This document shows positions 2,539 to 47,457 of a stretch of 64,000 nt of DNA, in pieces. Made by a program: the position numbers and the translations under genes. The DNA lies in NCBI GenBank assembly GCA_025355505.1, contig JANXZM010000052.1, positions 1 through 64,000 on the forward strand. Reading direction: 5' to 3'. This stretch comes from Acidobacteriaceae bacterium (GTDB lineage: Bacteria > Acidobacteriota > Terriglobia > Terriglobales > Acidobacteriaceae). How positions within the stretch are numbered: position 1 is the first letter of the stretch; each line of letters opens with the position of its first letter. Under the pieces are notes generated by a model. That model was given only the letters and a program-made list of their open reading frames with translations, did not search any database and was not told the origin of the DNA.

Positions 2539-4260
2539 ATGAAATCTGAAAAAACCATTTCTCTCTGCATTCTTCTTCTAGGGGTGGCCCTGGTTGGGCA
2601 GAAACCGGTTAGCGCGCAAAAGCCTCTGGCCGGGCCCGACGATGTCCTGCTCGCCACCATGGAAAAGGAGCTGAATCGCGGCCAGTCCGAGCTGGCCAAG
2701 CAGGATTCTGCCCCCTACTTCACCAGCTACCACGTCACCGACGGGGAATCGCTGGTCATCCTCAGCGCCCAGGGTGGAATTCTAGCCTCATCTCATACGC
2801 GGCACCGCGCCGCCGACGTCAGCATGCGGATCGGCGCGCCCGCTCTTGATAACACGCATGACCAGGAACGTTTCTCGGGCATTACTTCGGGGCAGCTTCC
2901 GCAGCGGGACGACCCCGAGGCCATCGCCCGCGTTCTCTGGAAACTGACGTACGAGGAGTACCGGAAAGCGCGCCAGGCCTACACCAACGTCAAGACCAAG
3001 ACCGCCGTCCGGGCCAAGGACGAAGACGACTCGCCCGACTTCTCCGAGGAGAAGTCGTCGACTTACATCGAGAAAAGTTCTTTGGCTGGGTTTCCCGAGC
3101 AGGAGGCATGGGAAGAACTGGCGCGCCGCTATTCCGCTTATTTCCGAGGCTTCCCCCAAGTCGAAGAGTCCCTGGTTTCTGTTTCCGCGGCGAGGGGCCA
3201 CGATTACATGGTCTCGACCGAAGGCACGAAGATCGTCACCGCCGACGCCATCTTCCGGATTATGATCCAGGCGGAAACGCGGGCCGACGATGGCATGCAA
3301 CTGATGCGCGTGGAAACTTTCCAGTTTTCGGACCCGGCGAAATTTCCGACCGAAGTGGAAGTGGCGGCGAGCGTGAAAAAAATGGCCGACGACTTAAGCG
3401 CGTTGCGCGCGGCTCCGCTCGCCGAACCTTACAGTGGTCCCGCGTTGCTCTCGGGACGCGCGGCCGCGGTTTTCTTTCATGAAGTGCTGGGCCATCGAGT
3501 CGAAGGACAGCGCCAGCGCGGGCGGGCTGAAGGCCAGACCTTCACCAAAAAGGTCAACGAAAAAATTCTGCCGGATTTTCTCAGCGTCACCGACGATCCC
3601 ACGCTGCATAGTATCGCCGGCACGGAACTGTCGGGTTTTTATCGCTACGACGACGAAGGGATTCCCGCTGCGCGGGTTGAGGTGGTGAAAGACGGCATCC
3701 TGAAAAATTTTCTAATGGGGCGATTGCCGGTGAAGAACTTCAGCAATTCGAACGGCCACGGCCGTGCCCAGTCCGGACTGATGCCGGTCGGACGCCAGGG
3801 CAACCTGATCGTCAGTTCTTCGAAGACGATTCCCGACGCCCAACTGCGCTCCCGGTTCATCGAAGAAATCAAGAAGCAGGGAAAACCCCACGGCCTCTAC
3901 TTCGAAGACATCCAGGGCGGATTCACCCTGACCAAGCGCGATCTGCCGCAAGCGTTTCAGGTGTTGCCCGTAATGGTTTGGCGCGTTTATGCGGATGGGC
4001 GTCCCGATGAGCTGGTCCGCGGGGTTGACATCGTGGGGACCCCGCTGACCGTGTTGACGCAGATCGCCGCTACCGGAGACACCACCAGCGTCTTCAACGG
4101 AATTTGCGGGGCCGAATCCGGGAGCGTTCCTGTATCCGCGGCTGCGCCGGCGATGCTGTTCTCGGAGATGGAAGTGCAGAAACGAAAGTACGGCGATACG
4201 CGTCCTCCTATTCTTCCGCCCCCGCCCGGCGCGACGGATGAGCGGGGAGGCGCGAAATGA
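2539..4260 (+). CDS. Secreted TldD-like zinc metallopeptidase
   Basis: The protein belongs to the TldD/PmbA (TldD/TldE) peptidase family. Started at ATG 2539 it has a signal peptide (MKSEKTISLCILLLGVALVG, then cleavage after VSAQ). The metal motif HEVLGH lies at residues 314-319 and is followed by RVEGQ, as in catalytic TldD subunits (HExxxH). The later YDDEGIPAARVEVVKDG and GHGRA motifs are also family-typical. The length of 573 residues is longer than E. coli TldD (481), partly from the signal peptide and an N-terminal extension. E. coli TldD/TldE is cytosolic and cuts unfolded peptides; the signal peptide here implies periplasmic or secreted action, substrate unknown. The next gene overlaps by 4 nt (ATGA) and encodes the probable partner subunit. 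The start at 2470 was rejected because it sits before a terminator. Confidence 0.88.
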   Translation: MKSEKTISLCILLLGVALVGQKPVSAQKPLAGPDDVLLATMEKELNRGQSELAKQDSAPYFTSYHVTDGESLVILSAQGGILASSHTRHRAADVSMRIGAPALDNTHDQERFSGITSGQLPQRDDPEAIARVLWKLTYEEYRKARQAYTNVKTKTAVRAKDEDDSPDFSEEKSSTYIEKSSLAGFPEQEAWEELARRYSAYFRGFPQVEESLVSVSAARGHDYMVSTEGTKIVTADAIFRIMIQAETRADDGMQLMRVETFQFSDPAKFPTEVEVAASVKKMADDLSALRAAPLAEPYSGPALLSGRAAAVFFHEVLGHRVEGQRQRGRAEGQTFTKKVNEKILPDFLSVTDDPTLHSIAGTELSGFYRYDDEGIPAARVEVVKDGILKNFLMGRLPVKNFSNSNGHGRAQSGLMPVGRQGNLIVSSSKTIPDAQLRSRFIEEIKKQGKPHGLYFEDIQGGFTLTKRDLPQAFQVLPVMVWRVYADGRPDELVRGVDIVGTPLTVLTQIAATGDTTSVFNGICGAESGSVPVSAAAPAMLFSEMEVQKRKYGDTRPPILPPPPGATDERGGAK

Positions 4261-6152
4261 CCAGATACGCCTTGTCGTTTTCGCGCGTGATTTTGGGTGG
4301 CGCAGCGCTTCAGCGCCGCGGTAAATGGCTGGTTTTCAGATTCGGCTTAAGCCGCCGCGGTGAGGCTGCTGGGCGGGAGTCCAAAGAGGTGGCGGAAAAG
4401 CCGGCGTTCGATGGGAAGGCGCGACCTCAGCGGCTAAAGCCGGGTTCACAACAATGCAGTAATCGCAGGGCTGAAGCGCTGCTCCACCCAAAACCAAGTT
4501 CAACATGGCGTTATTCAGTCATCTTTTCGGCAATCCTGCTCTGCGCCTTGTCAACTTCGGCATGCGCCGCCGGTTCCGCTTCCGGCGATGTCGTCCTCCG
4601 GGCGCTTCGGGAAGAGATGGACCGCTCCAAAGCCAAGCTGAAATTGGAGAACGTGCCGGCGCCGTACTACATCGAATACCGCGTCACCGAGATCGACCAA
4701 TTCGAAGCCAGCGCGGTTTTCGGCGCGCTGCGCAACCAGCAACATGATCACGGCCGCCTGTTGCGCGTCGTAGTCCGCGTCGGCGACTACAAGCAGGACA
4801 GTTTCTTCGGCACCGGAGAAGGCGTTATCGACCTCGTTCCATTTGATAATGACGTCTACGCCATCCGCCACCGCCTCTGGCTCGCCACCGATCGCGCATA
4901 CAAGGCCGCCACTGAAGCGCTCTCCGCCAAGCAGGCTGCCCTGAAGCAGTTGAAAGTGGATGAGCCGGTTGACGATTTTGCCAAAGCCACGCCGGTCGAA
5001 GCCGTCGAGCCTCTCGCCCGTTTTTCTTCGACTGACTTCACCTCATGGCTTCATCTCCTCGAAGAGGCCTCGGCTCAATATCGCGCCGACAAAGAACTGC
5101 AGAGCTTTGAATCGGCGCTGCGTTTCACTGTCGAGAACCGTTACTTCCTGAACTCCGAGGGCACGGTCGCGCGCGCCGGTCACACCCACTACGTCATCTC
5201 CATCGCCGGCTCAACGCAGGCTTCCGACGGCATGTTGGTGCAACGGGCGCACGCCGACCAGGGGAACGACCTGAAGGATCTTCCCACCCGCGAACAATTT
5301 TTGAAAACCACGGGCCGGATACTGGAGACGCTGAAGTTGCTGCGTGACGCTCCAGTCGTCGATGAGGAATATCGTGGACCAGTGCTGTTTTCGAACGATG
5401 CCGCCGCCACCGTCATCACCGATTTGGTGGAGCCGAATGTTCTCGGCAGGAAACCGCAGCTTGGCGAGAACGCGCGCACCACGGGGAAATGGTCCAGCAG
5501 CTACAAGTCGCGCGTGCTGCCCGATTTCATCAATGTGTTCGACGACCCAACGATCTCCACTATTTCCGGCCAGCCTCTGTTCGGCAGCTACACGCTGGAT
5601 GACGAGGGAGTGAAAGGCCAGCGCGTATCTCTGATTGAGAAAGGACAACTCGTCTCTTATCTCATCGGACGCCAGCCCATCCGTGACTTTCCGGCCTCGA
5701 ACGGACACGGTCGCGCCGCCGCGGCCGCCGCGCCTTTGCCTGATCCCGGCAATCTCGTTTTGGAGTCGATCGATCCCCAGCCGGATGCCGGCCTCAAGGC
5801 AAAGTTGATCGAGCTCTGCAAGAAGCGCGACCTGCCCTATGGACTGTACGTGGAAACTATGGGGCCGTCGCTCCAGCCGCGGCTGCTCTATCGCATCTGG
5901 ACCAAAGATGCCCATGAAGAACTAGTGCGCGGGGGTGTCTTCGGAGATCTCGACGTTCGCTCGCTGCGCAGCGATCTTGTCGCCGCCGGAACCGCGCCCG
6001 CGGTCGAGGACCGTTCCGATCCCGTCTGGTTCAGCGTCGCCAGCCCCGCGCTTTTGTTTGACGAGTTGCAGGTCAAGCGGACGCAAGCCGCCAAACAGAA
6101 ACTTCCTGAGTATCCCGCGCCCGCGCTCGGTGAGGCCGTGAATAAGCCGTGA
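4257..6152 (+). CDS. Secreted TldE/PmbA-like partner subunit (no metal motif)
   Basis: This is a paralogue of the preceding peptidase, with the same YTLDDEGVKGQRVSLIEKG and ASNGHGRA motifs. At the position of HExxxH it reads TDLVEP, so the zinc ligands are gone. This is the relation of TldE to TldD in the heterodimer of E. coli. Its stop/start overlap (ATGA) with the upstream gene suggests translational coupling. The first ~85 codons are odd: a hydrophobic signal sequence (RYSVIFSAILLCALSTSACAAG) appears only at about residues 84-105, after a 203-bp repeat element (4291-4493) that reads through in frame. No ATG, GTG or TTG lies just before the signal sequence, so the true start is unclear. 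Either the long N-terminus is used, or export is impaired. Confidence 0.82.
   Translation: MTRYALSFSRVILGGAALQRRGKWLVFRFGLSRRGEAAGRESKEVAEKPAFDGKARPQRLKPGSQQCSNRRAEALLHPKPSSTWRYSVIFSAILLCALSTSACAAGSASGDVVLRALREEMDRSKAKLKLENVPAPYYIEYRVTEIDQFEASAVFGALRNQQHDHGRLLRVVVRVGDYKQDSFFGTGEGVIDLVPFDNDVYAIRHRLWLATDRAYKAATEALSAKQAALKQLKVDEPVDDFAKATPVEAVEPLARFSSTDFTSWLHLLEEASAQYRADKELQSFESALRFTVENRYFLNSEGTVARAGHTHYVISIAGSTQASDGMLVQRAHADQGNDLKDLPTREQFLKTTGRILETLKLLRDAPVVDEEYRGPVLFSNDAAATVITDLVEPNVLGRKPQLGENARTTGKWSSSYKSRVLPDFINVFDDPTISTISGQPLFGSYTLDDEGVKGQRVSLIEKGQLVSYLIGRQPIRDFPASNGHGRAAAAAAPLPDPGNLVLESIDPQPDAGLKAKLIELCKKRDLPYGLYVETMGPSLQPRLLYRIWTKDAHEELVRGGVFGDLDVRSLRSDLVAAGTAPAVEDRSDPVWFSVASPALLFDELQVKRTQAAKQKLPEYPAPALGEAVNKP
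4291..4493. repeat. REPIN/MITE-like 203-bp element inside the TldE-like gene
   Basis: The ends are inverted repeats: TTTTGGGTGGCGCAGCGC at the left and its near-complement GCGCTGCTCCACCCAAAA at the right (one mismatch over 24 bp). Inner arms GGCTTAAGCCGCCGCGG and CAGCGGCTAAAGCC also pair. A related single arm lies at 41353-41385 in an intergenic region. It sits between the coupled start codon and the signal peptide of the TldE-like gene and keeps the frame open. Confidence 0.75.
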
Positions 6153-9835: not shown

Positions 9836-9845
9836 TTTTTCGTGT

Positions 9846-9868
9846 GGCGCGGACACTCTTGTCCGCGC
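9846..9868. repeat. Dispersed palindrome, GCGGAC-N-GTCCGC type
   Basis: GCGCGGACACTCTTGTCCGC, a nearly perfect palindrome with a variable centre. It sits just downstream of the DksA/TraR gene, where it may also act as a transcript end. Confidence 0.75.
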
Positions 9869-12331: not shown

Positions 12332-12353
12332 AACGCGAGCAAGAAATAAGTTT

Positions 12354-12431
12354 GTCATCCTGAGCGAAGCGAAGGATCTGCTTTCTTGTAGCTGCAAAAA
12401 ACAGCAGGTCCTTCGCTTCGCTCAGGATGAC
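12354..12431. repeat. Long inverted repeat between pqqD and pqqE
   Basis: GTCATCCTGAGCGAAGCG opens a 29-nt arm that is repeated in inverted form to 12431, with one mismatch and a ~20-nt loop. It would form a very stable hairpin inside the pqq transcript. Partial copies lie at 47363-47391 and 60648-60676. Confidence 0.9.
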
Positions 12432-12454
12432 AACGCTCGGTGAGTTGATTCCCA

Positions 12455-36489: not shown

Positions 36490-36513
36490 AGCGCGGACAA
36501 GAGTGTCCGCGCT
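36490..36513. repeat. Dispersed palindrome, GCGCGGACA-N-TGTCCGCGC type
   Basis: AGCGCGGACAAGAGTGTCCG continues CGCT. The palindrome is nearly perfect and is the reverse form of the 9846 copy. Confidence 0.75.
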
Positions 36514-36549
36514 ACACAATGGCGTGCGGGGTTTCCGGCGCCGAAGCAG

Positions 36550-47312: not shown

Positions 47313-47362
47313 TTTGCGACCTCGGAGGCGACGTTGATGAGTGACCATGGTACGGCGAGGAC

Positions 47363-47457
47363 AGCAGGTCCTTCGCTTCGCTCAGGATGACAAATCATTT
47401 TCGAGATGACAATTCATTTTCAGGATGACAATTGATTTTCGAGATGACAAATCATGC
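47363..47457. repeat. Half-palindrome plus 19-bp tandem repeat between argG and argH
   Basis: 47363-47391 is one arm of the GTCATCCTGAGCG repeat (minus sense). It runs into 3.8 copies of a 19-bp unit at 47386-47457: GATGACAAATCATTTTCGA, GATGACAATTCATTTTCAG, GATGACAATTGATTTTCGA, then GATGACAAATCATGC. The first unit starts with the GATGAC end of the arm. Confidence 0.85.

Follow-up and report, generated by a model that had tools for sequence, protein, structure and literature searches.

The window analysed here, 64,000 nucleotides in all, belongs to contig 74 of an acidobacterial MAG of 4.16 Mb (G000), whose nearest named relatives by tldE are Acidobacteriaceae/Terriglobia MAGs, several of them with palsa or fen isolate names. 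It carries a tldD-like gene and a tldE-like gene (Table 1), and the stop codon of the former overlaps the start codon of the latter in an ATGA (4257-4260). The TldD-like product contains an HExxxH motif and has, as judged by eye, a signal peptide of its own; for TldE, no solved structure was matched at E<=0.01. The tldE frame is open without interruption over its full length and, between its ATG and the core of its signal peptide, crosses a quasi-palindrome (at about 4288-4500) with inverted arms of 47 nt each (4288-4334 and 4450-4496), which are 79% complementary and 115 nt apart. A repeat inside the leader with the frame still open is what the original prediction had described, and it is borne out by the uninterrupted frame and by the dispersal of the element throughout the genome; the signal sequence, which had been placed about 84 residues inside the protein, lies close to that position.

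Table 1. Features of the tldD-tldE locus in the window, and places of Acido-Lenti-1 in other loci
Feature	Position	Strand	Basis
tldD-like gene	2539..4260	+	PF19289, 102.6 bits; stop overlaps tldE start
Shine-Dalgarno-like GGGGAGG	4244..4250	+	sequence
tldE-like gene, 631 aa	4257..6152	+	PF19289, 61.4 bits; orthologs
Original signal-peptide start, MTRYALSFSR	4257..4287	+	similar in relatives
A core, two hairpins	4296..4361	+	sequence and copy comparison
Middle joint, remnant resembling the family's terminal repeat	4362..4424	+	by eye
B core, inverted copy, two hairpins	4425..4489	-	sequence and copy comparison
Hydrophobic core, residues 87-98	4515..4550	+	Kyte-Doolittle mean 2.66
Likely signal-peptidase site, STSACA/A	4551..4571	+	inferred by eye
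Acido-Lenti-1 places	L032:1419-1464, L036:3148-3238, L198:3220-3265, L201:3358-3403		

The element combines two cores, A and an inverted B, each with two short hairpins, and its likeness to other copies extends to about 4510 (by eye). The interval 4235-4530 is predicted to fold as RNA at -141 kcal/mol (z -5.7), with none of 200 shuffles as good. A BLAST search of its own genome returns 62 matches at E<=10, a count that spans both strands and in which palindromic copies are therefore counted twice, and the homologous element of G003 matches 21 of the 24 genomes of the genus (E<=1e-8); among the matches listed, those elsewhere in the genus cover a single half of the A/B composite. The family looks MITE-like, because 14 of 55 other copies carry a terminal-repeat-like motif on both sides (versus 0.05% in random flanks); the tldE copy does not have this motif at its outer ends. 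Acidobacterial transposases of the tyrosine type that have terminal repeats are on record (excerpts of PMC3733652), and these enzymes are possible movers of the repeats. The term 'REPIN-like', which the original prediction had used, holds for the layout, in that two inverted hairpin units are shared with REPINs, and fails on the tags: neither GTAG nor CGTC occurs on either strand of 4284-4518, and the REPIN label was rejected. Acido-Lenti-1 (RF01687) was also rejected as the identity of the window element, which scores 17.1 bits against a cut-off of 37 bits.

TldE was found at E<=1e-100 in 15 of the 24 genus genomes, and 13 of the leaders are readable, those of G020 and G021 being cut by contig ends. 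Repeat DNA lies in nine of the 13. The A/B element occurs in five leaders (G000, G003, G004, G012 and G019), all of them from MAGs: both cores are present in G000, G003, G012 and, as two pieces, in G004, and G019 shows B only, the edge of the element there adjoining an assembly gap. The G007 leader retains the A half alone, and those of G008 and G010 consist of a stub of A and then Acido-Lenti-1 (59.0 and 43.3 bits, Rfam), the family for whose cut-off the window element is too weak a match. The long leader of G002 is largely built from two other repeats, one of which provides residues at the likely cleavage site (CGADTPVRA, by eye); palindromes of the GCGGACA-TGTCCGC kind found in this leader also lie in the window at 9842-9868 and 36491-36517. 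The remaining four leaders (G022, G011, G016 and G018) are short and ordinary, as are most readable tldE leaders outside the genus, where those of G027 and G057 are ambiguous. That the element-free relatives, including more distant ones, are short-leadered from the corresponding start agrees with the predicted capture inside the leader, and no ortholog with the same long leader and no repeat is present among the 13, the one long leader that lacks this element, that of G002, being largely other repeats. One MAG labelled Hyphomicrobiales (L067, PMAF01000107.1) has the tldE leader of the acidobacterial L066 in the stretch compared; it was not counted as a separate species, and its label is probably a binning error.

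In a protein tree, all A/B-descended carriers fall into one clade (UFBoot 97), within which G022 nests beside G007 (UFBoot 92), and this suggests a history of one old insertion, one shrinkage, one loss and later invasion; a nucleotide tree, which is weaker there, places G012 and G002 differently. The repeats might instead have entered species by species at an insertion hot spot, as other families occupy the same site in G008/G010 and in G002, and the arms resemble tldE copies no more closely than they do copies elsewhere in the genomes. We consider such independent entry true for the later arrivals and unlikely for the A/B element, whose tldE copies have a common composite order and share codons that are rare in other copies, namely a Lys codon in A (5/5 tldE copies versus at most 9/57 elsewhere, counted by hand) and Asn/Asp codons in B (5/5, few elsewhere); these features argue for common descent.

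At the old start, GGGAGG and an ATG or GTG are kept in 8/8 A/B-descended carriers, a conservation to be read together with the tldD C-terminus, which by itself holds part of the tldE start region. The start overlaps the tldD stop in seven of these carriers (in G007, tldD ends 13 nt earlier), and all eight retain the open frame. Between the element end and the hydrophobic core, no ATG, GTG or TTG is found in 7/8, and the core is kept in 8/8; because of these two observations, we prefer a tldE that most likely starts at the ATGA, giving one unusually long signal peptide. Translation could also begin downstream of the repeat, from a rare start codon like ATT, ATC or CTG, which would make the repeat an untranslated insert between tldD and tldE and the old ATG a relic. 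The strong hairpins of an element without protein constraint would suit such a start, as would the ATG found right before the core in G004, but the other seven carriers have no canonical start there and the old start codon and open frame persist in all, so that we regard it as unlikely. By contrast, in another gene of G000 (L210) the repeat lies upstream of the signal peptide and is followed by AAGGAGG and a GTG start.

A leader far longer than usual, with a net charge of +13 ahead of the core, might equally be thought to hold TldE in the cytoplasm or to anchor it in the membrane. Such a loss of export is very unlikely, given that the core survives throughout the carriers and that the TldD partner, by eye, retains its signal peptide. 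The original prediction had offered two outcomes of the capture, an internal start at a rare codon or a loss of export, and the missing canonical starts and the retained core favour neither. In an AlphaFold model, residues 1-84 have pLDDT under 50 and are followed by a helix (83-103) and then the folded enzyme domain; residues 1-23 of the G003 protein might form a separate membrane segment. Signal-peptidase cleavage follows the A-x-A rule, by which the likely site (Table 1) was placed by eye; the initiation, export and cleavage of TldE are inferred. The predicted signal peptide exceeds the autotransporter signals of 42-56 residues given in rows of a table in PMC2805444.

Taken together, it is probable that a mobile repeat inserted itself within the n-region of the signal peptide of tldE, and that the gene is still started at its ATGA and read through the repeat to give one long signal peptide, with the repeat residues discarded. 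In this scheme, a MITE-like palindromic repeat with two inverted cores would have entered the n-region about ten codons past the start, before speciation, and the gene would have survived because the element had an open frame and a length that left the downstream frame unchanged. Ribosomes would still initiate at the ATGA codon and translate the repeat, producing a long, basic and disordered n-region followed by a hydrophobic core of the usual kind. The whole leader would be handled by Sec and signal peptidase as one long signal peptide, and the repeat-encoded residues would for this reason be discarded. Later, the element may have shrunk (G007), been lost (G022) or been invaded by another repeat (G008 and G010).

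The peptide encoded by the element is nearly unconstrained: its dN/dS is 0.56-1.7 (six pairs) versus 0.10-0.15 in mature TldE, and a conserved leader peptide was rejected on these values near 1. The DNA itself is unevenly conserved between species, with hairpin arms of the tldE element differing by 2-10%, spacers by 26-40% and fourfold sites by 40%, and the UnbV copy described below behaves similarly in three pairs (arms 0/38, spacers 4-11/20). This arm conservation is one of DNA or RNA and not of protein; either selection on the hairpins or conversion directed by the arms may be its cause. A hairpin constraint specific to tldE is not favoured, given the same pattern in the UnbV copy and given that two intergenic pairs (G004/G015 and G004/G017) also retain the greater part of their arms. 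Compensatory changes were seen in one hairpin of an apparently orthologous intergenic copy (G004 L122:1434-1686 versus G015 L143:243-495). In a simple neutral simulation, the chance of the frame staying open in four lineages is 1.4%. With the intended arms, tldE copies are open in 5/5 cases for A and 5/5 for B, rows scored 'stop' or 'fs' being opposite arms in the wrong register and left out; copies outside tldE are open in the B frame in 38/72 rows and in the A frame in 14/70 rows, the latter with two length classes mixed. We therefore do not take the open frame as strong proof, both because of the simulated value and because the repeat is often open elsewhere.

The same repeats, or sister families of them, have also been captured in frame by other genes. 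In the penicillin acylase (PF01804), the comparison took 14 of 15 loci, and among the 14 aligned orthologs nine have clear repeats from four families, two have weaker ones and three have none (by eye). The repeat of the G004 acylase lies at about residues 330-373, and is placed on the spacer side because the solved beta chains of the family begin to align at residue 396 and no solved alpha chain reaches beyond residue 287. The UnbV/ASPIC protein, for which 11 of 12 loci were taken, has family C in a linker in 3/11 orthologs, and Tgt (PF01702; L215:853-2064) has an in-frame half repeat of family D, VSEKKQALRFAQDDN, in a loop just past the window (G000:C74:67937-67981). Copies of family D (TTGTCATCCTGAGCGAAGCGAAGGA) lie in the window at 12352-12433 and 47360-47394, and the family is in frame in an acylase gene elsewhere in G000. 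Families B-E have two of six frames open each and A has three of six, with one frame used per family in the captures seen. Of 20 places with long open frames over repeats, among the matches listed, two were judged to be real captures (L133 and L134), the rest being intergenic, antisense or interrupted by stops; 12 places taken from 75 rows yielded one further capture (the Tgt of L215), and the others lay upstream of the true start or were spurious.

Acido-Lenti-1, although filed as an RNA, is a dispersed repeat in these genomes, including G000; two genomes read it in frame within the tldE leader, and another two within the acylase spacer. Since removal is expected both for the leader of TldE and for the spacer of the acylase, we tentatively raise the idea, itself somewhat doubtful, of a cryptic niche in which protein parts that are cut off take up successive palindromic families, always in an open frame, so that selfish DNA would persist within working genes at almost no cost and with hairpins kept, Acido-Lenti-1 being one such family. 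The captures in the UnbV linker and in Tgt do not fit such a niche. In these peat-soil bacteria, repeat DNA seems able to persist in stretches of protein whose removal is probable, Acido-Lenti-1 is recast as a repeat able to be protein-coding, and in the tldE leader different repeat families appear to have succeeded one another in frame. A prediction from this is that some exported proteins have leaders 50-100 residues long, which programs for calling start sites or predicting signal peptides may overlook.

In the open-access literature, no paper describing elements of this kind within coding genes of Acidobacteriota was found, and the closest parallels come from other bacteria. The MIRUs of mycobacteria are likewise small repeats at coupled starts, with a spacing of -4 nt (excerpts of PMC12548453), but they sit at the start codon with an ORF of their own and an overlapping stop and start, whereas the repeat here, about 30 nt into the gene, is part of the tldE frame and lengthens it. 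In Yersinia, the signal peptide of YPO1552 is partly derived from a MITE, YPAL/RU-2 (excerpts of PMC2229807); repeat DNA thus contributes to a signal peptide in both cases, there as part of the signal of a new protein and here by lengthening the n-region of an old one. The closest likeness is to the Rickettsia palindromic elements (RPEs) and their Wolbachia counterpart, described in the excerpts of PMC10969869 and PMC2229807 as dispersed palindromes of 100-200 bp that belong to several families and are fused in frame into conserved genes, usable in one frame. The window element is also a dispersed palindromic repeat of many copies, the repeats have been inserted in frame in conserved genes (tldE, penicillin acylase, the UnbV protein and Tgt), and one reading frame is used per family in the captures seen. 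The setting differs in the phylum, in the place within a signal peptide and in the different families found at one site, and the two are likened by description and not by sequence. By this analogy, the tldE element may work like the Rickettsia palindromic elements, which would add free-living Acidobacteriota to Rickettsia and Wolbachia as bacteria with protein-coding palindromes.
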